Shown: positions 3,218 through 47,634 of the stretch, piece after piece
Layout of the letters: each line of letters starts with the position of its first letter
Position numbering within the stretch: position 1 is the first letter of the stretch
The notes under the pieces: generated by a model
Told to the model about the DNA's origin: nothing
Seen by the model: the letters and a program-made list of their open reading frames with translations, nothing else
Databases searched by the model: none
Made by a program: the position numbers and the translations under genes
Origin: a candidate division WOR-3 bacterium
Lineage (GTDB): Bacteria; Hydrothermota; Tepidihabitantia; Tepidihabitantales; Tepidihabitantaceae
Length of the DNA stretch: 64,000 nucleotides
Direction: 5' to 3'
Assembly: GCA_039801085.1 (NCBI GenBank)
Contig: JBDRTY010000001.1
Span: forward strand, 62,001 to 126,000

Positions 3218-3262
3218 CTGCCATCCCTGCCGCAAGCCGGAGTGCGGGCGCCTGTGAGTCGG

Positions 3263-3520: not shown

Positions 3521-3550
3521 ACAGCCTCCATTTGTGTTAAACAAAACTAA

Positions 3551-3623: not shown

Positions 3624-3633
3624 ACGCACTCAA

Positions 3634-3661
3634 ATTTTAAGCATCAGAAACCGCTTGTCAA
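3634..3661 (-). promoter_or_regulatory. Promoter of the tRNA-Phe/rpsT unit
   Basis: TTGACA (3656-3661), 16-base spacer, TAAAAT (3634-3639), with predicted transcription start about 4 bases before the tRNA 5' end. It gives an internal standard for the promoter form in this genome, because the tRNA end is fixed. Confidence 0.8.
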
Positions 3662-6198: not shown

Positions 6199-8826
6199 AT
6201 GATTGAAAATTACCATTCCGATTTTCCCACCCGTTATGACCCAAAGCCGGTTGAGGAGAAGTGGTACCGGTTCTGGGAGGAGAAGGGGTATCATATTGCC
6301 AATCCGGAATCGCCGAAGCCGAAGTTTTCAATTGTAATCCCGCCGCCCAATGTCACCGGTTCACTCCACATGGGCCATGCGCTGGACAATACCCTGCCCG
6401 ATATCATTATCCGGCGCAAGAAGATGCAGGGTTATGAGACGCTCTGGCTCCCCGGGACCGACCATGCGGGTATCGGCACTCAGGTAAAGGTGGAGCAGAT
6501 GCTTGCCAAGGAGGGCAAGACCCGGTTTGACCTGGGACGGGAGGGATTTCTCAGGCGGGCATGGGAGTGGAAGGAGAAATACGGCAATCAGATTGTGGGT
6601 CAGTTGCGCCGGCTCGGCTGTCTGCTGGACTGGAGCCGGTTCCGGTTTACGCTGGATGAGGTGTGTGCCCGGGCGGTGCGGGAGGCGTTTGTCCGGTATT
6701 ACGAAGCCGGGCTGATTTATCGCGGGCTGCGGATTGTCAACTGGTGCCCGCGCTGCCGGACCGCCCTTTCTGATCTGGAGGTGAAGGATGTGCCGGAGCA
6801 GTCTCATCTCTGGTATATCCGTTATCCGTTCGCGGATGAGCCGGAACGGTTCTTAGTGGTGGCGACCACCAGGCCGGAGACGATGCTTGGTGACACCGCG
6901 GTCGCGGTCAATCCCGAGGACGAGCGTTATCAGACACTGGTCGGCAGGATGCTGGAACTGCCCCTGACCGGCAGAAAGATTCCGGTGATTGGTGATCCGG
7001 CGGTGGAGATGGATTTCGGCACCGGAGCGGTCAAGGTGACACCGGCACATGACCCGGCAGACTTTGAGATCGGCGAACGGCACGGGCTGGAGCGGCTCAA
7101 GGTGATCGGTGAGGACGGAAGAATGACCGGTGCCGTGCCGGAGAAGTACCGGGGTCTGACGGTTGCCGAGTGCCGGCAGGCGGTGGTTGAGGATCTGAAG
7201 GCGCAGGGGCTGCTGGAGAAGATTGAGGATTATCAGCATGCGGTCGGGACCTGTGACCGGTGCGGAACGGTGATTGAGCCGCTGGCAAGTGAACAGTGGT
7301 TTGTCCGGATGAAGCCGCTGGCGGAGCCGGCGATCAAGGTGGTGGAACAGGGCAAGGTGCGGTTCTTTCCCGAGCGCTGGAACAAGGTCTATCTGGAGTG
7401 GATGCGGGGGGTCCGGGACTGGTGCATCTCCCGCCAGCTCTGGTGGGGACACCGGATTCCGGTCTGGTACTGCGGGTGCGGTGAGATTATCGTCAGTCGG
7501 CAGGACCCGGACCGCTGTCCGAAGTGCGGTTCGAGCAGTCTGCGCCAGGATGAGGATGTGCTGGACACCTGGTTCTCCTCTGCCCTCTGGCCCTTTGCCA
7601 CCATGGGCTGGCCTGAGGAGACGATTGACTACCGGACATTTTTCCCGACCAACTTCCTGACTACCGATCCGGACATCATCTTCCGCTGGGAGGCGCGGAT
7701 GATCTTCTCCAGCATCTTCTTCACCGGCAGGATTCCGTTCCGGGATGTTTACATCCATTCCACTGTGCTGGATAAGACCGGTGCCCGGATGAGCCGGTCC
7801 AAGGGGATCGGGGTTGACCCGCTGGAGATCATTGAGCAGTACGGAACCGATGCCTGCCGGTTTACGATCGCCTATCTGGAAAGCCAGTCGCAGAGCTACC
7901 GGCTCTGGAATGAACGGTTTGAGCTGGGGAGAAATTTCTGCAACAAGCTCTGGAACGCCTGCCGGCTGGTGGCACCGCACATTTCCGGAGTTGGCGGGGA
8001 ACTGACAGCATCCGGTCTGGCACCGGTGGACAACTGGATCATCGCCCGGTTTAATCAGGCGCTGGAGCGGGTGAACCGTGGTATTGACGGCTACAATTTT
8101 GCTGCGGCGGCACAGGCGGTCTATGAGTTCTTCTGGCATGACCTGTGTGACTGGTATCTGGAGTTTGCCAAACCGCGGCTGAGGACCGGTGAGCCCGGGG
8201 TGAGGACGGTGCTTTACCATCTGTTCCGCCACACCCTTCAGCTGCTCCATCCGTTCATGCCCTTTATCACTGAAGAGCTCTGGCACCGGCTGGGACTGGG
8301 CACCGGCTCAATTCTGGATTCAGTCTGGCCCGGTCCGCTGCCAGGAGATGAGGCAGAAGTGGCGCTGGTGGAGCGGTTGCAGGAGCTGATAACCGGAATC
8401 CGGCAGGTGCGGGCAGAGATGCGGGTGCCGGCAAAGAGCCAGGTGGAATGTGTGGTCAATACCGGTGATGAGGAGTTTCGGCGATTTCTGACTGAAAATG
8501 AGGGGCTGGTTGCTGAGCTGGCAAAGGTTTCCCGGCTCAGCTTCAGCCCGGTCCGGCCGGCGGCTTCGTCAGTGGTGGTGCTCAAGGAGGGCGAGGCGTT
8601 CATTCCGCTGGCAGGAATTGTTGATGTTCAGAAGGAGCTGGCACGACTGAAGAAGGAGGCAGCGGAACTGGAGCGGCTGATTGCGGAGATTGACCGGCGT
8701 CTGAACAGCCCTGATTTTCTTGAACGGGCGAAGCTGGAGGTGATTGAGCGGGAGCAGGAACGACGGCAGGAGTTTCAATCCCGCCGGGAACGGATTCTGC
8801 GCCAGCTGGAGGCATATCAGGAATGA
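6199..8826 (+). CDS. valS: Valyl-tRNA synthetase
   Basis: An 875-residue class Ia synthetase charging tRNA-Val. The HIGH-type signature appears as PPPNVTGSLHMGHALD near residue 50. The editing domain follows (TTRPETMLGDTAVAVNP), with two zinc-type Cys pairs: CDRCG, and CGCGEI with CPKCG further on. The second signature reads RMSRSKG near residue 535 instead of the usual KMSKS, so both lysines are Arg. The C-terminal 65 residues form the tRNA-binding coiled coil (KELARLKKEAAELERL). The start is fixed by the promoter seven bases upstream and by YDPKPVEEKW shortly after. It overlaps the next gene by four bases (ATGA). Confidence 0.96.
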   Translation: MIENYHSDFPTRYDPKPVEEKWYRFWEEKGYHIANPESPKPKFSIVIPPPNVTGSLHMGHALDNTLPDIIIRRKKMQGYETLWLPGTDHAGIGTQVKVEQMLAKEGKTRFDLGREGFLRRAWEWKEKYGNQIVGQLRRLGCLLDWSRFRFTLDEVCARAVREAFVRYYEAGLIYRGLRIVNWCPRCRTALSDLEVKDVPEQSHLWYIRYPFADEPERFLVVATTRPETMLGDTAVAVNPEDERYQTLVGRMLELPLTGRKIPVIGDPAVEMDFGTGAVKVTPAHDPADFEIGERHGLERLKVIGEDGRMTGAVPEKYRGLTVAECRQAVVEDLKAQGLLEKIEDYQHAVGTCDRCGTVIEPLASEQWFVRMKPLAEPAIKVVEQGKVRFFPERWNKVYLEWMRGVRDWCISRQLWWGHRIPVWYCGCGEIIVSRQDPDRCPKCGSSSLRQDEDVLDTWFSSALWPFATMGWPEETIDYRTFFPTNFLTTDPDIIFRWEARMIFSSIFFTGRIPFRDVYIHSTVLDKTGARMSRSKGIGVDPLEIIEQYGTDACRFTIAYLESQSQSYRLWNERFELGRNFCNKLWNACRLVAPHISGVGGELTASGLAPVDNWIIARFNQALERVNRGIDGYNFAAAAQAVYEFFWHDLCDWYLEFAKPRLRTGEPGVRTVLYHLFRHTLQLLHPFMPFITEELWHRLGLGTGSILDSVWPGPLPGDEAEVALVERLQELITGIRQVRAEMRVPAKSQVECVVNTGDEEFRRFLTENEGLVAELAKVSRLSFSPVRPAASSVVVLKEGEAFIPLAGIVDVQKELARLKKEAAELERLIAEIDRRLNSPDFLERAKLEVIEREQERRQEFQSRRERILRQLEAYQE

Positions 8827-9365
8827 AGGGGTTTATAAGCAGTTTAGGCTGGATACTGTTTCTACTGGCAGTGGGTGCCGGGCTGGTGTTTTATAATTTT
8901 TCCTATCTGCCACTTGCTTCCCGGGCGTTCAGACTGGAAAGGGAAGTCGGAATGTGGACCGGCCGGGTGGATGAGCTGGCGGACAGTCTGAAACTGTTTA
9001 AAACTCAGGACACGCTCTTCAGTGTGAGTTACCGGTTTGACGAGCTGTTTGTGGCACCGGAAAGTCTGCGGCTTTCGGCTGCCGGTGAAAACATCCTGCG
9101 CACAATTGTGCCCCAGCTTGGTTCAGGTCCGGTGGTGGAGGTGATTGCGAGCTGCGACCGCCAGTTACCGAAAGGGGCATGGCAGAATTCCTGGGAGTAT
9201 TCAGCGCTGGCAGCTGCTGCAGTCGCCCGCAGGCTTGTCAGTCTGGGGGTATCAGCAGAGAAGGTCCGGGTTGTGGCGCTGGGTGATACCCGGATGCCCC
9301 AGCGGCGCGAAGCCGAGGCGGCACTGCTGAACCGCCGGATTCAGATTGCGGTCCGGCCCAGATAA
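8823..9365 (+). CDS. Membrane-anchored OmpA/MotB-like protein
   Basis: A 180-residue protein with one N-terminal membrane helix (residues 6-28), a short coiled linker, then an OmpA/MotB-like domain. It has an IVPQL helix, VEVIASCD in place of the usual VEGHTD strand, SALAAAAVARRL, VRVVALGDTRM and the closing LLNRRIQIAV, matching the xNRRVEI end of peptidoglycan-binding OmpA domains. The usual peptidoglycan-binding Asp is hard to place, so wall binding is likely but not certain. It is translationally coupled to valS by ATGA and followed three bases later by another envelope gene. Confidence 0.7.
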   Translation: MKGFISSLGWILFLLAVGAGLVFYNFSYLPLASRAFRLEREVGMWTGRVDELADSLKLFKTQDTLFSVSYRFDELFVAPESLRLSAAGENILRTIVPQLGSGPVVEVIASCDRQLPKGAWQNSWEYSALAAAAVARRLVSLGVSAEKVRVVALGDTRMPQRREAEAALLNRRIQIAVRPR

Positions 9366-9368
9366 TTA

Positions 9369-9791
9369 ATGGGTGTTTTTATTCTTTTGGTTGGGGTAAG
9401 TTTGCTTCCGCCCGGGGGCGATTCTGCATTGCGAACTCTGCCAGTAAAATCACCCGGCAGAGCGGTGCTTTTTTCGCTGCTTTTCCCCGGCGGCGGTCAG
9501 CTGTATACCGGAAGATACTGGAAGGCGGCGGTGATTGCACCCGCCGAGCTCGGGCTCGGCTATCTGAGCTATCAGGAGCATCTGCGGGCAGAGCAGGCGC
9601 GGGCAGAAGCAGATACCGCCAAATACCGTTATTACCGGGACCGGCGCACAACCTTTCTCTGGTGGACCGCAGCCACCGTGGTTTTTTCCATGGCAGATGC
9701 TTATGTCTCAGCGCAGATGTTCGGGTTCGAACAGGAACTCCGGCTGGATGTGGGACCGGACCGGTTCGGAGTCAGAGTAGCAATCAGATAG
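9369..9791 (+). CDS. DUF5683-like small membrane protein
   Basis: A 140-residue protein with a short N-terminal hydrophobic stretch and a core SPGRAVLFSLLFPGGGQLYTGRYWKA, the pattern of DUF5683 proteins (Pro-Gly-x-Gly-Gln-xx-Asn/Thr-Gly between helices). A charged linker rich in Glu, Arg and Tyr and a second hydrophobic segment WWTAATVVFSMADAYVSA follow. Such proteins are common in FCB envelopes but have no assigned role. It lies between an OmpA-like gene and the amidotransferase-like gene in the valS transcript. Confidence 0.6.
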   Translation: MGVFILLVGVSLLPPGGDSALRTLPVKSPGRAVLFSLLFPGGGQLYTGRYWKAAVIAPAELGLGYLSYQEHLRAEQARAEADTAKYRYYRDRRTTFLWWTAATVVFSMADAYVSAQMFGFEQELRLDVGPDRFGVRVAIR

Positions 9792-9797
9792 TATCTG

Positions 9798-10496
9798 ATG
9801 AGCAGATTTTTTGCTGCTGCCGGCAGGTTCAAGATGGAATGGTTTCTGGCGGCGGTATTTGGAGACGGGGCAAGGCTGGTTGAGGATCAGCAGCTTGCTG
9901 GGGAATGGGGGCTGGGTTACTGTCATGGCAACCGGCTGGAACTGGTGCGTTCGCCCGGGAGGAAAGGCGAGCCCGGTCTGCTTAAGGCGCTCTTGGAGCT
10001 GAAGACTGATATGGCGGTTATTTATCAGCATGAGCTGTTGCCGGACTCTACTCCAGCAGGGCGTATTCCCCCCTATATCCACTATGAGCAGGGGCGACAC
10101 TGGATGTTCTGTCATGCCGGCAGAGTTACCCGGGCCGAAGCACTTTTTGGCAGCTGGCAGCGCACCTCCGGCGGTCTGACCGCAGCTGAGCTGCTGTTTG
10201 CCTATGTTTTTGACCGATTTAATTCGGAGCAGCCACAGGAATCATTGAATGGACTGTTGACTCAGCTTGCCGGTGAACCGGAGCTGGCGTTCTGCATGAT
10301 GTCGGCAGATATGCTGGCGTTTGTCTGCCGGACCGATGGCCGGGAGGACAATCCGGCGCGGCTCTGGCTGGGCAGAGGCGAGCTGATCCGGGTAATCTGT
10401 TCCGGAAGGGTGGTTAATCTGCCCGGAATCAGCTGGGAACCGATTCCTGCCGAACAGGTAATTTTTATCCGGCGTCAGCGCTGGGCAGTGGTTTAA
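9798..10496 (+). CDS. Class II glutamine amidotransferase-like (Ntn fold) protein with Ser2
   Basis: A 232-residue protein. The start MSRFFAAAGRF, the EWGLGY segment at 36-41, the QHEL strand near 78 and the FCHAGRV segment at 104-110 follow the order of a YafJ/EgtC-type class II glutamine amidotransferase. There the nucleophile is Cys2, a DGWG motif follows, and HNG supplies the oxyanion-hole Asn. Here residue 2 is Ser and HNG has become HAG. Ntn hydrolases can use Ser, so it may be a hydrolase of another kind or an inactive relative. Last gene of the valS transcript; six bases after its neighbour. Fold assignment by pattern only. Confidence 0.5.
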   Translation: MSRFFAAAGRFKMEWFLAAVFGDGARLVEDQQLAGEWGLGYCHGNRLELVRSPGRKGEPGLLKALLELKTDMAVIYQHELLPDSTPAGRIPPYIHYEQGRHWMFCHAGRVTRAEALFGSWQRTSGGLTAAELLFAYVFDRFNSEQPQESLNGLLTQLAGEPELAFCMMSADMLAFVCRTDGREDNPARLWLGRGELIRVICSGRVVNLPGISWEPIPAEQVIFIRRQRWAVV

Positions 10497-10567
10497 CCGC
10501 CCGGGCAAAAATTACCCTTCAGGGAAATCTGAGCGTAACCCTAACCTCTGACTTCACCTGCGGCGTT

Positions 10568-11674
10568 TCAGTGCCGCCGCATCTTGCTGCCGAACTCAAC
10601 CAGTTCGCGGAAGCCCTTCGGATCAAATGCGGATGCGATCGCGGTTTCGTAGGTGACCTTACCCGCCCGATACAGCTCTGCCAGATAGGCATCAAATGTC
10701 ATACTGCCTTCTGAGGAGCCGGTCTGAATTGCTGAGTACAGGTGTTCAATTTTGCGTTCGCGGATCAGATTGCGCACTGCAGGAGTGGCGATCATGATTT
10801 CGTAACAGCCGATTCTGCCCTTGCCTTCTGCCCGCAGGAGCAGCCGCTGGGAGAAGACCGCGAGCAGCGAGATTGAGAACTGGATTCGGATCTGGTCACG
10901 GATTTCCGGTGGGAAGATGTCGATGAAGCGGGTGACCGTTTCCGGTGCGTTAGTGGTATGCAGGGTGCCGATCACCAGGTGTCCGGATTCCGCCGCCCAG
11001 ATGGTGGCTTCAGCGGTCGCCAGATCCCGGATCTCGGCAACGAGAATGACATTCGGGTTGGAACGCAACCCTTTCATAATCGCTTCACGGAAACTGGATA
11101 CATCAACGCCAACTTCGCGCTGGGTTACCAGACCTTTCTTGTGGTCGTGGACGAACTCGATCGGGTCTTCAATTGTGAGCACATGCCGCGGGCTTTCCAG
11201 GATATAGTCAACAAAGGTCGCCTGAGTAGTGGTCTTGCCCATTCCGGTCGGACCGGTAACGAGAATCAGTCCGTGGGGCCGGTCAAGGAGCGATTTGATC
11301 CGCGGAATGAGGTGGGTCGGGACAAAGAGTTCCTCAAAGGAAAGGATACGGCGGGGAATGAGTCGCAGTGCCAGTCCGAAATAGCCTTTCTGCTTGTAGA
11401 CCGCAACCCGGAAACGTGCCATGTTCTTGAAGTTGAGGGCAAAGTCACCACCGCCGCCGTTGTCAATCTGGGCACGGAGGTGGCGCAAGTCCTTGGTGGC
11501 GATGTTCTTGAAGCTTTCGGTTTTGTCCGGGGTCAGGACCGGGCAGTGTTCAATCGGCTGGAGTAACCCGTCGACGCGCAGTGTTGGCGGACGTCCGACT
11601 GTTAAATGAAGGTCAGAGGCGTTGCGACGAATGCACTCGGCTAAGAGTGACTCAAAATATTCTTCGTCAGACAT
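10568..11674 (-). CDS. pilT: PilT/PilU-type twitching motility ATPase
   Basis: A 368-residue type IV pilus retraction-type ATPase of the secretion ATPase superfamily. The N-terminal PAS-like domain contains NASDLHLTVGRPPTLRVDG. The motor has Walker A GPTGMGKTTT, an Asp box IEDPIEFVH, a Walker B region with AEIRDLATAEATIWAAESGH and the His box GTLHTTNAPETVTRFID. The usual PilT AIRNLIREGK helix appears as AVRNLIRERK. No other pilus gene is in the window. The start is the ATG at 11674: the -10 ends eight bases before it, and the TTG one codon upstream is the alternative. Confidence 0.9.
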   Translation of the reverse strand: MSDEEYFESLLAECIRRNASDLHLTVGRPPTLRVDGLLQPIEHCPVLTPDKTESFKNIATKDLRHLRAQIDNGGGGDFALNFKNMARFRVAVYKQKGYFGLALRLIPRRILSFEELFVPTHLIPRIKSLLDRPHGLILVTGPTGMGKTTTQATFVDYILESPRHVLTIEDPIEFVHDHKKGLVTQREVGVDVSSFREAIMKGLRSNPNVILVAEIRDLATAEATIWAAESGHLVIGTLHTTNAPETVTRFIDIFPPEIRDQIRIQFSISLLAVFSQRLLLRAEGKGRIGCYEIMIATPAVRNLIRERKIEHLYSAIQTGSSEGSMTFDAYLAELYRAGKVTYETAIASAFDPKGFRELVEFGSKMRRH

Positions 11675-37769: not shown

Positions 37770-38792
37770 TTAATCAGTGACGATCAGCTTTCCGTTGAAC
37801 TCAGTCCCGTTAACCTTAAGCCGGTAGAGGTAGATGCCGCGGTGGAGCCGGCTGCTGACATTAATTCTGCTGTCGCCCGCTATTGTGCCATTTTGAGTAT
37901 GGGATATCCGGCCGTCAACAGTGTAGATGTAAAGCTGATACTGGGCTCCGGAACTGGCGGTGACGGTAAAAACGGGCCGGCCTGAAGCCGGATTGGTAAG
38001 GGGTCTTACCTGTGCCGGCATGCACTCAGCCGGTTTTCCTTCACCGACGCCGACGAGGTCTAGAATCGCAATCTCTGCTCCCTGGTAGGCAGGATAGGAG
38101 GAGTCGGATGGTACCATAGTAGTACTCTGGGCATAAACCACAATTTTGCAGCGTTGTTCATTCCAGGTACTGGCGATCGTAAAGGGTTGAATTACTGAAT
38201 CAATACCCCCAGCAGGGACGGTAATTACCGTACCATACTGATTAGGAATGTAATCGCGGCAGACATGATTGTGCCACTGGTCACCGTTGGGCGCGGAGTA
38301 GTAAATTGAGTCTTCAGTCACTACAACCGAAACACGCATTGTCAGGTCATCGGTCGAATCGTTCTGAATCAGCGTTTTGATTGTGCCCTCGCGGGTGGTC
38401 TGGTTGTAATTACCGGTCAGGCTAATCTGGACCGGAGTCGGCACGCCGATCTGCGCCGCAACATAGCTTGCCCAGAGGTTATAGTTGTAACCGCGCTGCC
38501 GGCCGTCAACCCAGAGCCAAGGGGTCGCATAGGAACCGCTGTAGGGCCCGGGGTACATGTACCATTTGCCCCGCGCTTCGGCAGAGTAAAGCGGATATGA
38601 GGATGATACATGCCATTCGACGGCAACAACATAACCGGCATAATCGTAGGTGATCTGGTCAACTGCCCGACTGGCAGGTGCGCAGCTGGCTCAACCTTCA
38701 GAATAGGCTTCTTCCAGGACGACGATTCGCTGGTAGCCCACTGTAATAGTTGCAGTGAGCACCAGGGAAAGGACGATCAGTTGCTTGAGCAC
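37770..38792 (-). CDS. Putative selenoprotein: Omp28/thioredoxin-like secreted protein with UASC motif
   Basis: A 340-residue protein if the TGA at 38693-38691 is read through as residue 34. The GTG start at 38792 has AGGAGG five bases upstream and its own promoter. A signal peptide (MLKQLIVLSLVLTATITVG) leads into RIVVLEEAYSEG-U-ASCAPASRAVDQ. In Omp28-like and TlpA-like proteins the same place holds the first Cys of a WCxxC redox site, so UxxC is the expected selenocysteine form. The frame is intact on both sides (YVVAVEWH, then TPWLWVDGR, the cis-Pro/product-site region). The C-terminus (VDGRISHTQ ... RGIYLYRLKV ... LIVTD) is a type IX-like tail. If not read through, only a 33-residue peptide results. 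No selenium genes are in the window. Confidence 0.8.
38655..38685 (-). promoter_or_regulatory. bSECIS-like hairpin downstream of the UGA (gene at 38792)
   Basis: Counting U of UGA as 1, CUGCC (17-21) pairs with GGCAG (27-31) around an AGUCG loop (22-26). After a mismatch two further pairs (14-15 with 33-34) and a lower CUG/CAG stem (9-11 with 37-39) extend it. The loop starts 18 bases after the UGA and has G at its second position, matching the bacterial SECIS model. The G-U at 23-24 falls where E. coli fdhF has its GGUC loop. Confidence 0.65.
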
Positions 38793-38810: not shown

Positions 38811-38838
38811 ATTATAGTTATCGAGCCCAGTGTGTCAA
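38811..38838 (-). promoter_or_regulatory. Promoter of the UASC selenoprotein gene
   Basis: Consensus TTGACA (38833-38838), 16-base spacer, TATAAT (38811-38816), inside and just after the end of the MFS gene. The leader is about 12 bases and carries AGGAGG (38798-38803). Confidence 0.8.
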
Positions 38839-40202
38839 TCCTGATTTCTGATTCCCAGCGCCTGCAGCAGAACATCCTTACCGGCATTCAAACGCCACAG
38901 TGCCAGATTGGTCAGTTCTCGAATTGTATGCCGCACCGGCTTGCTGCCCGGTTCCCGGACCTTAAGCAGTAGTGGCAGGCAGGCGAACCGGGCGATGCCG
39001 GCAGCAAGGAACATGACGTCGTAATTATAAAAATCGATGCCAAGGATTTTCAGATGAAAGCTGGAGATCAGCTGGGCGATGGTACCGGCAATCAGGGAGG
39101 CAATAAAGGCACCGAGACCGGTGACGACACTGTAGATCGCAAAGTAGCTTTCCTTGCGGGCAGGGTTATCGGCAAGGTCAAGCAGCAGGTTCCATAGTCC
39201 GAGACTGGCTCCGGTCCAGACCGCGCCGTTGAGGACGCCATCAATCCAGATTGGCAGGCGGAAGCGGGGGGTGGCGAAGAGCCAGAGAAAAGGCATTATT
39301 CCCACGAGGGCAAAGTTGAGGACTGTAACTGGTCGGGAGCCGAATCGGTCGATTGCGCGGCCCCAGAACAGTTGGAACAGGACGCCGATTACTCCGCCAA
39401 TCATGGAATAAATTGCCACTTCGGTAAAGCTGAAACGGAGATTTTTCAAGAGATGGACGAGGTAAAATGGTGATGCGAGTGTGCCGGTGAGAAACCAGAT
39501 TGCGAGGAAGATTGTCAGCCGCCGGAACTGCGGTTCCTGGAGCGGGCCGAAAAGAATTTCCCGGAATGCCGGTGCCGGCAGGAGTTTCGGTTCGGGTTCA
39601 GGCTGCCGGCGCAGGAGCAGTGTTGAAACCACACCGAACAGTACTGCGAGTGTAAACGCCAGCAGGTAGCCGGTGGTTTCGTTCCCCCGGGCTTTCAGAT
39701 AGTCCATACCCCGTCCCGCCCCAAATGCAACCAGCACACCGCTGACATTGAGAATTGCATTCCGGACACCGAAGAAACGGCCCCGGCGTTCCTCAGGCAC
39801 GAGGTCACTGATCCAGGATGTCCAGACCGTGCCGGCGATTGCCATCAGCACTGCGGAAATGCCGACGATCAGCAGGAAAAGTTCAATCCGCAGCCGGATG
39901 CGGAGCAGCAGGGCGATGACGATCAGTACATAGACTGACCGGCCGGTACCCGCGGTCCAGAGTACCAGCGATTTTCGGTTACCGACCCGGCGCACCAGGT
40001 AGCCGGAGAGAAAGCTGAAACCACTGACCAGTGCGGGGATGGCAGACAGAAGCGCAATCTGAAATGAATTTGCCCCGAGGTGCAGTGCCAGTCCGGCAAG
40101 AAACATACCGCCGGCAAGGGTTGTGTAGAGGGTGGCAAAGGTGCCTTCAATGATCGAGATTTCCAATCCTTTTTCGATTTCGCGGGGGGAGAGACGGTTC
40201 AA
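38835..40202 (-). CDS. Major facilitator superfamily transporter
   Basis: A 455-residue MFS permease with about twelve membrane helices. The family loop motif between helices 2 and 3 reads GYLVRRVGNRKSLV, and the second-half equivalent GRAIDRFGSRPV; VPEERRGRFFGVRNAI is also typical. Substrate not predictable. The TTG start overlaps the lipA stop as TTGA, so it is translationally coupled as the last gene of the redox operon. The promoter of the following UASC gene overlaps its 3' end. Confidence 0.8.
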   Translation of the reverse strand: MNRLSPREIEKGLEISIIEGTFATLYTTLAGGMFLAGLALHLGANSFQIALLSAIPALVSGFSFLSGYLVRRVGNRKSLVLWTAGTGRSVYVLIVIALLLRIRLRIELFLLIVGISAVLMAIAGTVWTSWISDLVPEERRGRFFGVRNAILNVSGVLVAFGAGRGMDYLKARGNETTGYLLAFTLAVLFGVVSTLLLRRQPEPEPKLLPAPAFREILFGPLQEPQFRRLTIFLAIWFLTGTLASPFYLVHLLKNLRFSFTEVAIYSMIGGVIGVLFQLFWGRAIDRFGSRPVTVLNFALVGIMPFLWLFATPRFRLPIWIDGVLNGAVWTGASLGLWNLLLDLADNPARKESYFAIYSVVTGLGAFIASLIAGTIAQLISSFHLKILGIDFYNYDVMFLAAGIARFACLPLLLKVREPGSKPVRHTIRELTNLALWRLNAGKDVLLQALGIRNQD

Positions 40203-41077
40203 ATCAGTGGAGGGTCGGGGTTGATATCTGTCCTGAGCAGTTCCTCAGCCAGATATGAGCTTCGGACCAGCGGGGCAGCAATGGTTCGCGGGATGCCGAT
40301 GGCGCGGGCATGCGCTGACAGCTTCTGAAGTTCCTCCCGGGTGTAGTAACGCGCAACTGGCAGGCAGCGCCGGTCCGGCTGGAGATACTGGCCAATGGTT
40401 ACAATATCACATCCTGCTGATTTCAGGTCAGCGAGTGTCTGGATGACCTCCTCCTCGGTTTCCCCCAGTCCGACCATCAGACCGCTTTTGGTTCTGACTG
40501 CCGGTGCCAGCATTTTTGCCAGCTGCAGAGTAGAAAGCGACTGGCAGTAATCTGCCCGCCGGTCACGGACAGCCGGGGTCAGCCGCTCCACGGTCTCAAG
40601 ATTGTGGGCAAAAACATCCGGACCGGCAGCAAGTACCTGCTGAATCAGTTCTCTTTTTCCATGGAAATCCGGAACCAGCACTTCAACAGCGATTCCCGGA
40701 TTTGATTTTTTCAGCAGCTGCACGGTGCGGGTAAAGATACCGGCACCGAGGTCAGGCAGGTCATCACGATCGACCGAAGTCAGGACGACATATTTAAGAC
40801 CCAGTTCCAGAATTGCCTCTGTCACCCGTTCGGGTTCAGAATTATCTACCTGACCGCGCGGGTTGCCGGTGGTAACAGCGCAGAAGCGGCAGTGTCGGGT
40901 GCAGGTGTTGCCGAGAAGCAGAACTGTTGCCGTCCCCCGATTCCAGCATTCAGCAAGGTTCGGACAGCGGGCTGAGCTGCAGACGGTATTCAGGTTATAT
41001 TTCCGGAGAATCTGATTTACCCGGATAAATTCCGGGCCGGCGGGCAGCCGGAATCTGAGCCATTCTGGTTTACGCAC
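40199..41077 (-). CDS. lipA: Lipoyl synthase
   Basis: A 292-residue radical-SAM enzyme that inserts two sulfurs into octanoyl groups of lipoyl domains. The auxiliary 4Fe-4S cluster motif is CSSARCPNLAEC, the radical-SAM motif CTRHCRFCAV, and the C-terminal RSSY motif VRSSYLAEEL supplies the serine ligand. GTTEEEV-like GETEEEV and QYLQPDR are also conserved. GTG start, seven bases past the NapH-like stop region. No lipB or lipoylated enzyme is near; its place in a thiol-redox operon is unexpected. Confidence 0.95.
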   Translation of the reverse strand: MRKPEWLRFRLPAGPEFIRVNQILRKYNLNTVCSSARCPNLAECWNRGTATVLLLGNTCTRHCRFCAVTTGNPRGQVDNSEPERVTEAILELGLKYVVLTSVDRDDLPDLGAGIFTRTVQLLKKSNPGIAVEVLVPDFHGKRELIQQVLAAGPDVFAHNLETVERLTPAVRDRRADYCQSLSTLQLAKMLAPAVRTKSGLMVGLGETEEEVIQTLADLKSAGCDIVTIGQYLQPDRRCLPVARYYTREELQKLSAHARAIGIPRTIAAPLVRSSYLAEELLRTDINPDPPLI

Positions 41078-41078
41078 T

Positions 41079-42359
41079 TCAGAAAGTAATTTTCAAGGAT
41101 TTTGGTGGACAGTTCCAGACACACTGAAAACACCGGATACATTCTGCCTGATTCGGGTCCTGGAACGGCTCAATGTCCATGGGGCAGACCCGGCGGCAGG
41201 CTCCGCACTTACTGCAGGTCTGTCCGTTCAGCTCCATCCGCATCATACTGGCTTTGTTGAACAGGGCATAAATCGCACCAATCGGGCATACCATGCGGCA
41301 GAAGGGGCGTTTTACCGTGATTGATGCCCAGAAGACGAATAAAAGAATGGCAACTTTCAGATAAAAGAGCCAGCCGACAAGTGCCCGCAGACCCTGAACC
41401 GGGTCCCACAGCACAAGCGGGATACCAGCTTCCAAGGTGCCCTGAGGGCACAGTTTGCAGAACCAGGGTTCGGCAGTGAAGTAGGCAGCGACGCCTGCAA
41501 CGATGAGCAGAAAGGAATATTTGAGAGCAGTCGCAGGGAGGTAAAGTTTAAGTCTGCCTTCCAGAAGCAGAACGTTTAAAACCGCAAACAGAATAAAAAG
41601 GAGGCCGATTTCCCCGCCTGAAAACGGACCAATTCCTACTGATTTGCCGTTAAGGCTGATGATAAAACCGGCTGGGACGGCGATGAACAGTGACCGTTTC
41701 CCACCAAGCAGGCTGAAGGCAGCCATGCTGACTACGCCAGTTGCGATGCCGGAGCTGGCCTCATGTTTGAATATGATTAGCAGGCCCAGAACAATTCCCA
41801 GGAGCATGCCGGCAACCGAGAATCGCTGGGGAAGTGCGAGTTTTCCCTTGATCGTACTGTAGAGCAGCAACGCCATAAACGGCAGCCACCCGAATAGCAG
41901 TCCTTTCCAGAATGAGATTTTGATGAAGGTGGCAAGCAGAATTACGGTTAGGATGCCGGTTCCGGCAATAGTCAGGAAGGTAACCCAGCGGTTCAGATTT
42001 GCCCGGGGTCCGATTTTAATCTTGTAAAGCAAGTCCTGCCACAGACCGAAGGGGCATATCCAGCCGCACGCCGCCCGGCCGACAAATGCGCCGATTATCA
42101 TGAACAGTCCCAGAATCACCCAAGGCACATTCTGCCACCAGGTAACCCCTTTCATGCCGATGATTTGCTGAAAAGAGCCAAGCGGGCAGGCAAATACCGA
42201 AAGGGGACCGCCGTAACAGTTGAGTACGGGTTCAGGTACCGATTTGAGTATTCCGGAGTAAAGGACTTTATTCTGAAGATAGGCAAGGATATAACCGTTC
42301 AGGAGCACGGTGCCGATAATCTGACCGATGCGATGTGGGGCAATGCGCCGTTTCGCCAT
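41079..42359 (-). CDS. NapH/MauN-like membrane protein with 4Fe-4S ferredoxin domain
   Basis: A 426-residue inner-membrane iron-sulfur protein. It has about nine membrane helices, the membrane Cys motifs ACPLGSFQQ (C58) and CGWICPFGLWQD (C98, C102), later CKLCPQGTLE and CRMVCPIGAIY, and ends with two 4Fe-4S clusters (CSKCGACRRVCPMD and CIRCFQCVWNCPP). NapH/NosR/CcoG-like proteins pass electrons between quinols or cytosolic donors and periplasmic partners. Here the neighbours are exported thiol/selenol proteins, suggesting it feeds or drains them. I start at ATG 42359 (MAKRRIAPHR); a TTG at 42413 inside the previous small gene is less likely. No clear Shine-Dalgarno. Confidence 0.8.
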   Translation of the reverse strand: MAKRRIAPHRIGQIIGTVLLNGYILAYLQNKVLYSGILKSVPEPVLNCYGGPLSVFACPLGSFQQIIGMKGVTWWQNVPWVILGLFMIIGAFVGRAACGWICPFGLWQDLLYKIKIGPRANLNRWVTFLTIAGTGILTVILLATFIKISFWKGLLFGWLPFMALLLYSTIKGKLALPQRFSVAGMLLGIVLGLLIIFKHEASSGIATGVVSMAAFSLLGGKRSLFIAVPAGFIISLNGKSVGIGPFSGGEIGLLFILFAVLNVLLLEGRLKLYLPATALKYSFLLIVAGVAAYFTAEPWFCKLCPQGTLEAGIPLVLWDPVQGLRALVGWLFYLKVAILLFVFWASITVKRPFCRMVCPIGAIYALFNKASMMRMELNGQTCSKCGACRRVCPMDIEPFQDPNQAECIRCFQCVWNCPPKSLKITF

Positions 42360-42396
42360 TTTACTTACAGGTCTACCCGAGACCCATACAGCCAAG

Positions 42397-42510
42397 TCAT
42401 ATCTGGGAAGCAAAGCCGTGAATGATTGAGAGCATGCCCAGTCCGATACCCAGCACTAAGAGTACGATTCCGCCGATTGCCAGCAAAACAAAGACCAGTT
42501 TCCGCCTCAT
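42397..42510 (-). CDS. 37-residue single-pass membrane peptide
   Basis: A small gene whose ATG overlaps the stop of the upstream barrel gene as ATGA, arguing that it is translated. It encodes MRRKLVFVLLAIGG, a continuous hydrophobic span of about 25 residues rich in Ile, Val, Leu and Gly, then SIIHGFASQI. The positive N-terminus predicts a cytosolic start. A glycine-zipper-like GIGLGM pattern suggests helix packing, perhaps with the NapH-like protein encoded 38 bases downstream. No named family recognised. Confidence 0.65.
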   Translation of the reverse strand: MRRKLVFVLLAIGGIVLLVLGIGLGMLSIIHGFASQI

Positions 42511-43967
42511 ATCCGGCTGATCAGTTGCAGTTTCATACCCCGGAATGGTGCCTCATATCGGCACACGCCACCTGAGCAGGTATAACCACCCTTTTCTGCT
42601 CCGATGCGGAGCCGCAGAACATTCCGTTCATTAAGATTATAGACAGTTTCAAACACAGGCCAGGAGATCTGGTTATCGTAGCGCTTGAGTGAATCTTTGT
42701 CCACACCCTGCCAGCCGATGGTAAAAAGCCATTTTTCACCCAGTCCGTAACTTACAGAAATCAGGGGTTCGTGATACCGCCAGTGGCTGCCATGAGTGGT
42801 ATCAGTGGGCAGTTCGGTTACCCAGCCCAGTTCTGCCTCGAGAGTAAAGGTATGGGGTCCGGTGAGGTAGTTCACCAGGATTGTCGGACGGTCGGTGGTC
42901 CGTTCGTAGGTTCCCAGTTCGATGTTTCTCTGGAGCATATGGTTGAATTTGAGTTCAAATGTCCAGTTCGTTCCCAGTGATTGCCGGGTTTTAAGTTCTC
43001 CCTCAAGGACACCGGCGCTGGTGTCGTCATGGACAAAAAGACGGGCCAAATCGGCTTCAAGGTAGAGCCCGTTAGGTATCGTTCCTGAGATCTGAACTCC
43101 GAATCCCTGTTCATCCACGCCCCGGTTAATCGAGACGCCGGATTTAATCGGAGTGGGGGGATCGTTATAGTGATAAGTACCCTGAGGAAAACCGAGCCGG
43201 AGGTAGTTTACATACTGGGCGATGATGGAAAAACCGGCAAGTGCGGTGCTCAGATTCAGGATGTAGCCCGTGCCGGTTTCCCGGCCGCCGATTCCCGGTT
43301 TTGTCCCCAGCCGCCAGGCAAATTCCGCTCCGGCAGAGACAGGTCCGATATCCAGCCGGCAGTCACCTCCAAAGAGCTCGGTGAACGCCTGTGCGGTCGG
43401 ATCGACCTCCCGGTTAATGCGGACATAACGGGTGCCCAGACCGAAAAGCTGGATCGGTCGAATAGTCAGATCAGCACCCAGTACTTGGTCAGTTGTATCC
43501 AGTTCGTTCATTACCTTGTAGGTGTTTTCCTGAAAAAAGACATCCCGGAGCCTGCCGCCGAGTAGTGTTACCTCACTGCTCAGTGGCAGTTTAAGTCTGC
43601 CGAACAGGCCGTGGAGGCTCTTGTAATGCCGGAAGTCATCATCGGCACCACTGCTCAATGTCAGTCCCTGGCCAAAGGTGGCGTAGAATCTGCCGAGCCG
43701 GACTTCAAGTTCTTCCGGGTTATAACCGATAGCGTAGTCCAGCAGATGGAGCGGTTTGCGCACTGCCGGTCCGTGCTTGGACGGTTCAAACCACAGCACG
43801 CCCAGTTCGGCATCAAAATCGCTGTAGCGGGCACTGAGCTCAAGCTTGTCCTCATAATGGGTTGCCCAGTCCTGCTGGTAAGCCCAGAATTCTGCCCGGT
43901 TGACCCCCTGGATTGTCAGGTTGGCACCGAAGACCAAGCTCAGAACCAAGAAACTGCCTATGCTCAC
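42507..43967 (-). CDS. DUF6029-like outer-membrane beta-barrel protein
   Basis: A 486-residue exported protein with a GTG start and signal peptide (MSIGSFLVLSLVFGA). The mature part has alternating beta-strands throughout and ends in a strand MKLQLISRI typical of barrels. The block VRLGRFYATFGQGLTLSSGADDDFRHYKSLHGLFGRLKL followed by LLGGRLRD resembles the GN-FYEQFG-G-LLR region of DUF6029 proteins of Bacteroidetes. Two Cys near the C-terminus (CSGGVC) are the only CxxxxC pair. It lies between tlpA-like and napH-like genes, so it may be an outer-membrane channel or scaffold for the redox proteins. Confidence 0.65.
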   Translation of the reverse strand: MSIGSFLVLSLVFGANLTIQGVNRAEFWAYQQDWATHYEDKLELSARYSDFDAELGVLWFEPSKHGPAVRKPLHLLDYAIGYNPEELEVRLGRFYATFGQGLTLSSGADDDFRHYKSLHGLFGRLKLPLSSEVTLLGGRLRDVFFQENTYKVMNELDTTDQVLGADLTIRPIQLFGLGTRYVRINREVDPTAQAFTELFGGDCRLDIGPVSAGAEFAWRLGTKPGIGGRETGTGYILNLSTALAGFSIIAQYVNYLRLGFPQGTYHYNDPPTPIKSGVSINRGVDEQGFGVQISGTIPNGLYLEADLARLFVHDDTSAGVLEGELKTRQSLGTNWTFELKFNHMLQRNIELGTYERTTDRPTILVNYLTGPHTFTLEAELGWVTELPTDTTHGSHWRYHEPLISVSYGLGEKWLFTIGWQGVDKDSLKRYDNQISWPVFETVYNLNERNVLRLRIGAEKGGYTCSGGVCRYEAPFRGMKLQLISRI

Positions 43968-43978
43968 TTTTTACCCGC

Positions 43979-44512
43979 CTATTTTTCCTGAGGGGGTTGC
44001 TCAGGTGGAACTGAGTCTTGGGGCGGCAGCCATCTTACCATTTCCTCAGCAATCCTTTTTTCGTCGCCCTTCTTGTAGCCGATGTGGGTGTAGACAATTT
44101 CGCCGTTCATGTTGATGAGGTAGGCGGTAGGTTTGATGATGATGTTGTATGCCTTTTTTACCCGCTGCTGCTGATCAAGCAGGACGATATAGGGCCATTT
44201 CTTGGCGCGAACAAATGCCCGGACCCGGTTCTCGTCTGCCGGCTTATCCACTGAAAGGGCTACAATCTGCAGTCCCCGGTCTTTCAATGAATCATATACC
44301 GGCAGCAGGGCATCAAGTTCGGCAATGCAGTTGACGCAGGGCAGATCCCAGCATTCTAGATAAACCGGGCCGTGTTTCAGGAGATCGTGAAGTGTTACTT
44401 CATTGCCATTAATATCTCTGAGGGTAAAATCCGGCGCCGGTTCGTACTTTTTCCCGGCACCGAAGGCAGTAAATAACAGAAAGGCAACTACAAAAGGAAG
44501 GACTTTTTTCAT
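43979..44512 (-). CDS. TlpA/ResA-like thioredoxin-fold protein
   Basis: A 177-residue exported thioredoxin-like protein. The signal peptide is MKKVLPFVVAFLLFTAFGAG. It continues APDFTLRDINGNEVTLHDL, then YLECWDLPCVNCIAELDALLP with the redox pair CVNC near residue 70, and IIKPTAYLINMNGEIVYTHIG with the cis-Pro. The aromatic Trp before CxxC is replaced by Pro, and the CWDLPC arrangement adds a third Cys. The tail is Pro-rich. AGGAGG precedes the ATG, which shares one base with the stop of the UAYC gene (TGATG). That coupling and the shared fold make it the natural partner of the selenoprotein. Confidence 0.9.
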   Translation of the reverse strand: MKKVLPFVVAFLLFTAFGAGKKYEPAPDFTLRDINGNEVTLHDLLKHGPVYLECWDLPCVNCIAELDALLPVYDSLKDRGLQIVALSVDKPADENRVRAFVRAKKWPYIVLLDQQQRVKKAYNIIIKPTAYLINMNGEIVYTHIGYKKGDEKRIAEEMVRWLPPQDSVPPEQPPQEK

Positions 44513-45297
44513 CAATCCTCCTGGTTTATTCGCCATTTGACAGCGGTTTGTAGCACAGCCCGGCTGGCAAGATTCTGGACAGTTACCGCAATGCCGGTGC
44601 GGTTCGGGTTCCAGTCCGGAACCGGTGTGCTGAGAACGGTATCAAAATCCTGTCCGAACCTGACACGGAGCGGGATGCCGAAGCTGTCACCAATGACGGT
44701 GCGGACGGTCATTGGTGAATAGAAGGTGTCGGCTCTCAGGACTGAATAATAGGGTATGCTGTCTTCAAAGGCGATTGCCACCAGGCGCAGAGTTGTAATT
44801 GTGTCGGCAGAAGAATCGGTGGGGGTGATTACGAGTCGCACTGTGAGCCGGGAGGAGTCGATGACGGCGCTGTCGATTCTCATTTCCAGCATCGTTTTTC
44901 TGGTTCGGGCAGCATCAATCATATCCCGGTAAACCGGATAAAAGGAGTCGGGCAGTGTAATCTGGGGTGAGCGGATGGTGCCGTCAAAAAATGCCAGGGG
45001 GCGTTCCCCACCCGCGCCGTACCACTCCGCTCGGGCCTTGCCCGCCGGTGAGGAAAGTTGAGGCAGAAGTTCCGAATCGTAGTAAATCACAAAAGCCATT
45101 GAATCACCATAGATTTCCCTGAGGCTGTCCAGCGCCCGCGCCGCGGACGCACAGTAGGCTCATTCATCGACGGGAGTAGAAAACAGTTCCACGAGCACAA
45201 TCCGGTTTGCCGCACGTTCAATCAGGGGTGCATCGGAGCAGGATAAAAGCAGACCGCCGGCAGCCAGCACGGTTAATATCACAGGCGTATGTTTCAT
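44512..45297 (-). CDS. Putative selenoprotein: thioredoxin-like lipoprotein with UAYC motif
   Basis: A 261-residue protein if the TGA at 45162-45160 is read as residue 46. The N-terminus is a lipoprotein signal (AAGGLLLSC, acylated C20). RIVLVELFSTPVDE-U-AYCASAARALDSL follows, which aligns with the other UGA gene as R-I-V-x-x-E ... U-A-x-C-A-x-A-x-R-A-x-D. The frame continues intact (MAFVIYYD, then RPLAFFDGTI, the thioredoxin cis-Pro strand-turn). UxxC replaces the usual CxxC. The C-terminal half is beta-rich. The second of two ATGs (45297) is seven bases from the -10. It is the first gene of the redox operon, coupled to tlpA. Without readthrough only a 45-residue lipopeptide would form. Confidence 0.8.
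45132..45150 (-). promoter_or_regulatory. bSECIS-like hairpin downstream of the UGA (gene at 45297)
   Basis: With U of UGA as 1, GCGUCCGC (13-20) pairs with GCGGGCGC (24-31), eight consecutive pairs with one G-U, around a GGC loop (21-23). The loop begins 17 bases after the UGA and its first two bases are G, as in the bacterial SECIS model. The region is very GC-rich, so alternative folds exist. Confidence 0.6.
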
Positions 45298-45336: not shown

Positions 45337-46617
45337 TTACTTTAGAGGTTCGGGAGCAGCTTGAAGGGCATAAAGGTCATGGGTGCCCGTTTTTGTCACC
45401 AGACAGCGGTAGAACCTGCCCGGTAAAAGCGGAGCGGGAAATTTGACCACGCCGTCAATTTCCGGTGCGTCCCATTCGGTTCTGCCCTGCCGGGGAAAAT
45501 CGGCAATGATGATCAGCTCCCGATTTGCAAGCCGGCGCAGTTTGCGCCGTGAGATTGCTGCCTGAATTCGCATGATGGTTTTGAGCCGCTGGCGGGCGGT
45601 TGCGGGGCGGACCGGCGGTTTCATGGCTGCCGCCGGCGTGCCGGGTTCAGGTGAGAAGACATAGCCTGCCAGCCGGTCAAATTCAGCAGACCGGATGAAG
45701 TCCACCAGTTCCCGAAACTCCTTGCGGGTTTCGCCCGGAAAGCCGGTAATGACGGTGGTTCGGATGCACATGTCCGGTATCTGTTTCAGTCGTTCCAACA
45801 ATCTTGCAACATCATTCCGGGAATAATGGCGGTTCATCAGCTTAAGCAGCCGGTCGCTGATGTGCTGTATTGGCAGATCGATATAGCGGCAGAGCTTCGG
45901 ATTGGTGCCGAACTGCTCAATGACATCTTCGGACAGGTGTGCGGGATGCGCATACATCAGCCGTAACCAGGTAATCTCTTTTATCCGGCTCAGCCGGTTG
46001 AAGAGCCGGGCAAGTGACGGTTTACCATAGAGGTCAGTTCCGTAGGCGGTGGTGTCTTGGGCAATGAGGATTAGTTCCCTGACCCCCACAGCGGCAAGGT
46101 GTTGTGCTTCGTCTTCGAGCTCTGAGAGTGGACGGGAACGGAACGGTCCTCGGATTTTGGGAATCAGGCAGTAACTGCAGTGGTTGTTACAGCCATCGGC
46201 AATTTTGAGATAGGCATAATGGAACGGTGTGGAAATCAGCCGGCAGCCAGGTCCGGTTTTTCTGCCAAGCAGTTCGGGGATGGAGGTCAGCTGGTCCATT
46301 TTTATCCAGTGATCAACCGCAGGGAATTTCCGGTTCAGAGTGCTGCCAAACCGCTGAACCAGACAGCCGGCGACAAGCAGTTTCATGCCCGGATGCCGAT
46401 GTTTGAGCCGGCTGAGTCTTTGGATCAGCGCAAATGATTCTTCGACCGCCGGTTTGATAAAGGCACAGGTGGTGAGAATGACAGTATCCGCTGTTTCCGG
46501 TTCTGCAGTCAGCTCATATCCGGCTTCAGCCAGTGCACCAAGCAGGTATTCGGAGTCCACCCGGTTTTTCGGACAGCCGAGCGCAATGACCGCTGCCCGT
46601 TCGGGTCTGACCTTCAA
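45337..46617 (-). CDS. rimO: Ribosomal protein S12 methylthiotransferase RimO
   Basis: A 426-residue radical-SAM methylthiotransferase that modifies Asp of ribosomal protein S12. The N-terminal cluster domain begins VIALGCPKNRVDSEYLLGAL, the form that separates RimO from MiaB, with TTCAFIKPAVEES and AGCLVQRF. The radical-SAM motif is CNNHCSYCLIP. The C-terminal TRAM-like domain is present (GRTEWDAPEIDGVV). The start is TTG 46617, whose TTGA overlaps the stop of the thioesterase; longer readings run through that gene in another frame. Confidence 0.92.
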   Translation of the reverse strand: MKVRPERAAVIALGCPKNRVDSEYLLGALAEAGYELTAEPETADTVILTTCAFIKPAVEESFALIQRLSRLKHRHPGMKLLVAGCLVQRFGSTLNRKFPAVDHWIKMDQLTSIPELLGRKTGPGCRLISTPFHYAYLKIADGCNNHCSYCLIPKIRGPFRSRPLSELEDEAQHLAAVGVRELILIAQDTTAYGTDLYGKPSLARLFNRLSRIKEITWLRLMYAHPAHLSEDVIEQFGTNPKLCRYIDLPIQHISDRLLKLMNRHYSRNDVARLLERLKQIPDMCIRTTVITGFPGETRKEFRELVDFIRSAEFDRLAGYVFSPEPGTPAAAMKPPVRPATARQRLKTIMRIQAAISRRKLRRLANRELIIIADFPRQGRTEWDAPEIDGVVKFPAPLLPGRFYRCLVTKTGTHDLYALQAAPEPLK

Positions 46618-47033
46618 TGCCGTTCTGAGACTTTCCAGAGTTTGCCGGTTGCCTCGGCAAGGATGGTGCCTTCGGCATCGGTCAGGCGGCTGGCAGCGAG
46701 CACCAGTCTGCCCTGTTCTGCGGTTATCCAGCCCTGGCCGTAAATCTTCCGTCCAACCGGCACCGGTTTGCGGAACCGGACATTCATTTCGGCTGTGACT
46801 GTGCTGTAGCCGCGGGTTTTCGTTGACCATGCCATCAGTTCATCAAGCAGTGTGGCAACAATGCCGCCATGAGCGATGCCGTGCCAGCCCTGATAATGTT
46901 CAGGAATCACATACTCAAAATGGGCGCCCTGCTCTTCAGCCACAATTGGCAGCCTGAGTCCGGAGGGGTTGGATCTGCCGCAGACAAAGCAGGTGTCTCT
47001 GTCCTGCAGTTCGAGCCTGTTACTGGAACTCAA
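46614..47033 (-). CDS. PaaI-type hotdog thioesterase
   Basis: A 139-residue hotdog-fold acyl-CoA thioesterase. After CFVCGRSNPSGLRL (a four-base-motif CxxCGxxNPxGL seen in a PaaI subgroup) comes YQGWHGIAHGGIVATLLDELMAW, the HGGxxxxLxDE catalytic helix, then VRFRKPVPVG. Substrate unknown. TTG start at 47033 with AAGGGG about seven bases upstream, overlapping lolA by 14 bases. It links an envelope gene to a ribosome-modifying gene in one transcript. Confidence 0.85.
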   Translation of the reverse strand: MSSSNRLELQDRDTCFVCGRSNPSGLRLPIVAEEQGAHFEYVIPEHYQGWHGIAHGGIVATLLDELMAWSTKTRGYSTVTAEMNVRFRKPVPVGRKIYGQGWITAEQGRLVLAASRLTDAEGTILAEATGKLWKVSERH

Positions 47034-47634
47034 CGGTAACCCCTTTCGGCGGAGTGAACCGGAAACTTTTCCGGCTGACCGGTGGATTCCAGCGCTGACG
47101 GGTGAGCAGAAACCGGCACTGGTTGCCCATTTCGTCGGTAAAGGAAAGTCCGGTAACTGTTGTGCCGGTGGGATCCAGTTCCAGACGCAAGGGGGAAAGG
47201 AAACTGTTGTCATTCTCAATCAGAATTATTCCGGTTCCCTCCTCGGTGATCCGGCTACTGGTATCCAGGAGCGGTTCCACGAAGGCAAGCAGTGGGACAG
47301 GCTGATTTCTCTGCTGTCGTACTGCCCGTTGCTCATCAGGAAAATAGAACCAGACTACCGAATCGTTGCCGACAATCGTCTGGCGGACCGGTTCCTGCAC
47401 CTCAAGCCGGAAGTTGTGGGGGAGCTGAAAGAGAAAGCTGCCTTTGAAGATTAGAGGTTCCTGTCCGATGTTCTCAGCCGGTCTGATCGTTTCCGTAAAA
47501 CTGCCCGCAAGCGACTTGAGCCCCAGATACCGGTTGCGCAGTGCCTGCCACCGGTCGGCTGGTGAGCCCAACCCGAGCGCAGCAGCAAGAATAACCGGTA
47601 GAACAGTTTGTCGAAAATGTCCGGTATGTTTCAT
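47020..47634 (-). CDS. lolA: LolA-like periplasmic lipoprotein carrier
   Basis: A 204-residue exported protein with a signal peptide (VLPVILAAALGLGSPA). LKSLAGSFTETIRP matches the opening of LolA, then GSFLFQLPHNFRLEVQEPVRQTIVGNDSVVWFYFPDEQR, the G-x-W-Y-P-x-x-x-Q region, and the closing FRFTPPKGVTVEFQ. LolA carries lipoproteins from the inner to the outer membrane; the window has several lipoproteins as clients. The ATG is placed by the promoter seven bases upstream. Confidence 0.8.
   Translation of the reverse strand: MKHTGHFRQTVLPVILAAALGLGSPADRWQALRNRYLGLKSLAGSFTETIRPAENIGQEPLIFKGSFLFQLPHNFRLEVQEPVRQTIVGNDSVVWFYFPDEQRAVRQQRNQPVPLLAFVEPLLDTSSRITEEGTGIILIENDNSFLSPLRLELDPTGTTVTGLSFTDEMGNQCRFLLTRQRWNPPVSRKSFRFTPPKGVTVEFQ

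Follow-up and report, generated by a model that had tools for sequence, protein, structure and literature searches.

GOS_C, a UxxC selenoprotein with a thioredoxin-like fold, was described from 74 sequences in a 2008 ocean survey, together with a SECIS-like hairpin (PMC2398784), and appears as a hypothetical protein under the model NF045500 in Table 1 of a 2026 review (PMC13188914); statements on these and the other papers cited here refer to the excerpts available to us. NCBIfam names NF045500 Omp28-related selenoprotein and, with GOS_C and NF045500 catalogued, this kind of selenoprotein is thus already known. HBP35 of Porphyromonas gingivalis, which carries Cys48/Cys51 and no Sec, needs both cysteines for its thioredoxin activity; one form is found on the cell surface, its gene is cited for complementation of a dsbA mutant of E. 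coli, and hemin is bound by the part of the protein from residue 135 on (PMC2907840). The excerpt of a 2025 selenoprotein prediction paper reports nine new families and shows none of an Omp28-like kind (PMC12013277). The open-licence literature searched yields no paper joining selenoprotein or selenocysteine with Omp28, nor WOR-3 with selenoprotein; in the excerpts returned, WOR-3 with selenocysteine leads only to formate dehydrogenase, glycine reductase and ATP synthase topics, type IX secretion with selenoprotein to nothing related (by title and start of abstract), and Omp28 with thioredoxin to no paper about selenoproteins (by title).

Here we analyse a window of 64,000 nucleotides from a candidate division WOR-3 bacterium, whose minus strand carries two genes that each run through an in-frame TGA (Table 1). 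The Sec gene, with product P0001, opens with ATG at 45297 and past codon 46 stays open up to a normal TGA stop (44514-44512) that overlaps the start of the TlpA-like gene. Its translation reads MKHTPVILTVLAAGGLLLSC-SDAPLIERAANRIVLVELFSTPVDE-[TGA]-AYCASAARALDSL..., with a single internal TGA that supplies, in the motif PVDE-U-AYC, the first residue of UxxC, just as the first-pass annotation had described. That annotation had also pointed to a homologous gene with TGA at the same redox position; we recover this sister gene, with product P0002, its TGA at 38693 (-) within YSEG-U-ASC, and BLASTP aligns the two products at E 5e-12 with 27% identity over 218 positions. Annotation by standard rules, with TGA read as stop, would truncate Sec genes of this type. 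We find that codon 46 is almost certainly read as selenocysteine, and that P0001 is very probably an exported selenium-containing thioredoxin-like protein whose gene is intact despite its apparent break by a stop codon.

Table 1. Features of the Sec gene locus, in window coordinates.
Feature	Position	Strand	Remarks
Sec-containing Omp28/HBP35-like gene, probable lipoprotein	44512..45297	(-)	261 aa, Sec46 and Cys49
Sec-encoding TGA, codon 46	45160..45162	(-)	family column U, C or (once) S
Lipobox-like cysteine codon (Cys20, LLLSC-SDAP)	45238..45240	(-)	from sequence; C[SGA]xAP in 36/57 TGA forms
SECIS hairpin, 8 pairs, loop GGC (45142-45140)	45132..45150	(-)	fits published bacterial SECIS model
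Second Sec gene (sister gene), Omp28/HBP35-like, putative T9SS-type sorting tail	37770..38792	(-)	Sec TGA 38693-38691
TlpA/ResA-like thiol-disulfide protein, WDLPCVNC	43979..44536	(-)	AhpC-TSA 74.5 bits; start overlaps Sec gene end
DUF6029 protein	42507..43967	(-)	C-terminal CxGGxC
NapH-like membrane polyferredoxin	41079..42413	(-)	56.7 bits, below NapH model cut-off 213
Lipoyl synthase, neighbour	40199..41077	(-)	
MFS transporter, neighbour	38835..40202	(-)	
Radical SAM protein, RimO/MiaB type, upstream neighbour	45337..46830	(-)	

P0001 shares with NF045500 and GOS_C an Omp28-type domain, a Sec as first residue of UxxC in a thioredoxin-like domain, Cys homologs and a SECIS-like hairpin; it differs from NF045500 in length (261 aa against 377 model positions) and from GOS_C in a linkage to TlpA and DUF6029 genes that is known for the genes here alone. 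It is not filed as NF045500 because it scores 15.6 bits against a cut-off of 200 bits, which P0002 (43.8 bits) also falls below. The model of the Omp28 family outer membrane lipoprotein, NF033782, gives P0001 19 bits (cut-off 150), and PF11551 (gathering cut-off 34.9) shows no match to it at E 1 or 1e-3; P0002 reaches 48.4 bits with PF11551. Across 71 members scanned at E 1e-3, a subset of those collected that comprises the two window genes, 53 other TGA forms and 16 Cys forms, NF045500 matches 63, NF033782 66 and PF11551 37. By model score, P0001 is a diverged Sec branch of the superfamily of NF045500. The Omp28/HBP35-like identity, the catalogued Sec form (NF045500 / GOS_C) and a longer conserved gene cluster go beyond the first-pass annotation.

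Relatives of P0001 were sought in 61 genomes, its own and 60 others that are assemblies of one class (the named ones metagenome-assembled), with matches in 51, and a family profile was built from the loci covering the listed matches, giving 126 domain rows with both window genes included. In these rows the Sec column reads U in 58, C in 57 and S in 1, and the other 10, all fragments, lack it; at least two of the C rows are second copies of genes already counted, because loci overlap, one additional TGA form read in a neighbourhood of genome G053 enters no count, and the relatives share ancestry, so that the counts are not independent events. With the sister gene left out, Cys is found at +3 in 114 of 115 rows, the exception being the Ser row, and none of the 115 rows has a further in-frame TGA inside the domain. 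A genome-wide reassignment of TGA to an ordinary amino acid, for which nothing speaks beyond the in-frame TGA itself, is vanishingly improbable against this background: TGA is an ordinary stop in the window, where it ends 21 of 46 mechanically picked, non-overlapping ORFs of at least 200 aa, the domain holds no second TGA, and the residue exchanged for U is Cys, once Ser, and never Trp or Gly. The earlier view that the code is not reassigned overall stands on these same counts.

Use of TGA as an ordinary stop in this genome would also suit a reading in which codon 46 is a true stop and the remainder a pseudogene or a sequencing error. We regard this as highly improbable, given that the codon 46 TGA is kept in 11 orthologs from the same family of genomes (L023-L033, 93% to 42% identical), that dN/dS, measured on the nearest species, falls from 0.58 ahead of the TGA to 0.07 behind it, the latter a mark of strong purifying selection, and that a covarying hairpin is found only in TGA forms. 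Equally slight is the chance that translation yields two products, one an exported peptide of 45 residues and the other a protein begun anew at ATG 45099 (codon 67): this ATG does open a 195-aa ORF, but its product would lack the signal peptide and UxxC, and the fold model places the first strand and first long helix in the missing part as well; the 20 codons from the TGA to ATG 45099 show 0 nonsynonymous changes against G001.

Some family members stand out individually. The sole Ser member (L111 in G038, 256-258) also lacks the second Cys and comes from a genome where neither SelA nor SelB exceeds its cut-off; one ortholog (L027 in G003) is split across two frames near residue 205, probably by a frameshift in the gene or the assembly; and in L091 (G053, 1248-3660) the Sec-bearing Omp28-like domain runs in frame into a subtilase (Peptidase_S8, E 8e-25), a junction that may be a real fusion or an assembly effect. 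A scan of viral contigs found no relatives of the family.

Published rules for bacterial SECIS elements give a loop of 3-9 nt, a stem of 4-16 bp, G in loop position 1 or 2, a spacing of 16-37 nt and an energy of -7.5 kcal/mol or better (PMC13188914). The eight-pair, GGC-loop hairpin that had been noted some 10 bases 3' of the TGA is present and lies within all of these limits, with bases +10 to +17 paired to +21 to +28, a 3-nt loop at +18 to +20, a TGA-to-loop spacing of 17 nt and an energy of -13.5 kcal/mol. As background, the window holds 2383 TGA triplets over its two strands, of which 104 are followed by a rule-conforming hairpin at -7.5 kcal/mol, and 12 by one at -13.5 kcal/mol or lower, that of the Sec gene counted in. 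Under a strict rule, our own coding of the published ones with an unbroken stem and -7.5 kcal/mol or better, a hairpin is found in 46 of the 57 TGA forms with enough sequence versus 2 of 56 Cys forms; the other 11 TGA forms miss it, and the hairpin of the sister gene, which stands outside the 57, is weaker than the published limit at -6.6 kcal/mol. A looser rule based on the minimum-energy fold separates the two less well (52/57 versus 38/56). When the 600-aa subfamily is left out, at least seven of the eight pairs form in the register of the Sec gene in 34 of 41 TGA forms versus none of 30 Cys forms, and 300 synonymous recodings give a mean of 3.9 and a highest value of 10. Folding of 48 nt relative to synonymous shuffles gives a mean z of -0.94 for TGA forms and -0.20 for Cys forms (p 3e-4).

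The pairing is also supported by covariation. In an alignment of 36 TGA rows (34 distinct), which are the 41 minus 5 of a third subfamily, 93.4% of cells are paired, changes occur on both sides in 6 of 8 pairs, and covariation reaches 0.559, compared to 0.216 for shuffles and no more than 0.194 for slid versions of the alignment; since the rows are related, the shuffle counts are not probabilities, and better controls come from the slid versions and from the Cys rows. At these columns, 29 Cys rows (of 31 candidates, the Ser row and one second copy were left out) are 34.8% paired, with a shuffle-like covariation of 0.096. The 600-aa subfamily has its hairpin in a different register (+17 to +34), present in 11 of 16 TGA forms versus 0 of 26 Cys forms; its covariation is weak, with 8 double-change cells and a -3 slide scoring equally high, and we therefore base the covariation claim on the 36-row alignment only. 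Rfam at gathering threshold matches only a tRNA in the whole window. SelB and Sec-tRNA would use the hairpin, 10-28 nt 3' of the TGA, and the ribosome would then continue to the TGA at 44512. For the reasons given above with each of these readings, we reject pseudogene, sequencing error, global reassignment and restart.

A tree built without the Sec column contains 7 changes between U and C, 6 of which are forced by well supported branches; it was made by a quick method with SH-aLRT support only, and drew warnings on long branches and letter make-up. One TGA form (L041 in G057, 2122-2124) is placed among Cys forms and lacks the usual hairpin register; it has a predicted hairpin with loop GGAU at about +30 and no TlpA on its stretch, and it suggests a separate Cys to Sec change.

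The genome itself (1.9 Mb, 7 contigs) encodes the machinery for selenocysteine, all above cut-off: a tRNA-Sec with anticodon tca (74 bits, cut-off 47), SelB (374 bits), SelA (570) and two SelD (348.5 and 332.6). One SelD lies directly after selB and has its own in-frame TGA, at SCAG-U-ASK, where the other has Cys; the two types have different neighbours and sit on different contigs, and the Cys-type selD forms one run with two Cys paralogs of the family and a small protein (L136, C2:400000-416000, 7098-11296). The first-pass annotation had proposed the selenocysteine reading and named Sec machinery, conservation of U or C at codon 46 and covariation in the hairpin among the ways to check it; these three, examined in silico, all support it, with the machinery in place, the column all but uniformly U or C, and covariation seen in TGA forms and absent from Cys forms. 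These recoding signals, the machinery and the conservation, like the fold model and gene linkage described below, are direct results of computation.

SelB is over cut-off in 45 of the 61 genomes, as is SelA. In the 51 genomes with a typed family member, a TGA form is present in 38 of the 42 in which SelA or SelB exceeds its cut-off versus 1 of the 9 in which neither does (Fisher p 6e-6). This one is G029, where only a fragment of SelB is seen, at the edge of a contig, and the remaining four Sec-equipped genomes have Cys members only. Five of the six single-contig genomes with a family member hold one within 13 kb of selA or selB, compared to a mean of 0.15 and a maximum of 3 in 20,000 random draws, where the 13 kb limit was chosen after the distances had been seen and a single genus accounts for four of the six genomes. 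A single run in G053 (L131, 2100-14599) contains TGA and Cys family members, a Sec-type selD, a double-cubane-cluster reductase, its activase, selA and selB.

An AlphaFold2 model of P0001 built from 8 sequences (pLDDT 83.9, pTM 0.81; residues 1-29 unsure) shows a thioredoxin-like domain followed by a beta-sandwich from about residue 137. Sec46 and Cys49 lie at the start of helix 47-66, the first long helix, and the thioredoxin-type Pro is kept, with Pro100 preceding strand 101-104 and aligned with the Pro of thioredoxin. The best PDB match of the model is HBP35 (5y1a; Foldseek E 1.3e-8), and the two superimpose over thioredoxin domain and beta-sandwich in one alignment (Z 22.8, rmsd 2.8, 220 aligned), followed by 2axo (Z 18.0) and the Omp28 domain 2r2c (Z 12.1). 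The likeness to HBP35 extends to the two-domain fold, to the Sec column, which the family profile aligns with Cys48, and, for P0002, to a putative T9SS-type tail; the differences are the Cys pair in place of Sec and an identity to P0001 of 12%. Against PDB sequences, phmmer finds nothing for P0001 at E 1, whereas the family profile does match. The model of P0002 is poor (pLDDT 50.2) and was left unused.

The product of the Sec gene would be an exported, probably lipid-anchored protein of the Omp28/HBP35 kind, with a thioredoxin-like domain and a C-terminal beta-sandwich. Its LLLSC (Cys20) presumably fits a loose lipobox pattern, and a hydrophobic start with CSDAP is typical of its subfamily; upstream of the Sec column, C[SGA]xAP occurs in 36 of 57 TGA forms versus 15 of 56 Cys forms. 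The proposal that P0001 is a lipoprotein thus holds as likely, judged from sequence, and is less clear for its relatives, because the residue before the Cys is the canonical G, A or S in just 15 of the 36. P0002 has a candidate sorting tail that TIGR04183 scores at 31.1 (cut-off 23) and Pfam PF18962 at 25.4, below its cut-off of 27. A PorU-like protein (G000:C1:595179-598307; 404 bits, cut-off 420), together with several matches to the model's tail part, hints at type IX secretion in the genome. A LolA-type lipoprotein carrier (47020-47634; PF03548 61.4 bits, over 23.6; TIGR00547 89.2, under 112) is encoded two genes upstream of the Sec gene.

The coupling of the Sec gene to a TlpA-like protein, as noted before, is widely kept. 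Among 36 lipoprotein-like TGA forms, the window gene included, a TlpA-like gene is found at 34, DUF6029 at 33 and selD at none; the matching Cys forms (15 rows, 13 genes) have neither TlpA-like nor DUF6029 neighbours, and selD at 7. Stretches read were mostly about 3.5 kb and some ended at contig edges, so that a missing neighbour is no proof of absence. With such different neighbours, the lipoprotein-like TGA and Cys forms look like paralogs with different partners and not like simple exchanges. TlpA and DUF6029 genes occur together with the Sec gene in 18 of 19 picked loci. All 40 rows of the TlpA-like protein retain CxxC, including 3 from genes unlinked to a TGA form. Sec-containing thioredoxin and TlpA-type selenoproteins (PMC13188914) resemble P0001 in having UxxC, or UGC, in a thioredoxin-type fold, the difference being that Sec here resides in the Omp28-like protein and the TlpA-like neighbour has CxxC. 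CxGGxC is found near the C-terminus of DUF6029 proteins in the window and in 9 of 9 homologs (10/10 sequences), and a polyferredoxin lies beyond DUF6029 in 8 of 9 loci of these homologs, two of the matches being partial. That the DUF6029 protein is an outer-membrane barrel is our guess.

In thioredoxins, the first residue of the pair is the attacking one. By analogy, Sec46 would be the attacking residue of Sec46-x-x-Cys49, and the TlpA-like protein would be its likely partner for electron exchange. We favour P0001 as an envelope thiol-disulfide oxidoreductase, a redox role suggested with reasonable confidence by fold, motif and neighbours; its location, anchor, redox partner, direction of electron flow and substrate are all inferred. 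Granted that codon 46 encodes Sec, an alternative for the role would be that the protein mainly handles selenium, metal or heme at the envelope. HBP35 binds hemin with the part from residue 135 on (PMC2907840), and other members of the family are found next to selD or close to selA/selB; against this, the genes linked to lipoprotein-like TGA forms are TlpA and DUF6029, with selD at 0 of 36 loci, and both UxxC and the thioredoxin-type Pro are kept, which makes a handling role rather unlikely.

If P0001 is indeed an oxidoreductase, a selenium-based disulfide relay in the envelope can be sketched, which we offer as a tentative and, taken as a whole, doubtful scheme. The NapH-like polyferredoxin would carry electrons through the inner membrane and hand them to the TlpA-like protein, which would reduce the Sec protein, which in turn would act on the C-terminal CxGGxC pair of the DUF6029 protein; the sister gene would supply a surface selenoprotein via type IX secretion. 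The entry of reducing power by way of the polyferredoxin, and its end point at the DUF6029 Cys pair, are guessed from gene linkage and the conservation of motifs.

These analyses add a new selenoprotein branch that keeps the same redox and membrane genes around it. The TGA and Cys forms of the family, in which the hairpin is present and covarying or else absent, provide a natural test set for bacterial SECIS models. All 33 of the lipoprotein-like members with DUF6029 on their stretch are TGA forms, though several of the same genomes hold Cys paralogs, and why an exported protein stays Sec in these bacteria is now a testable question.
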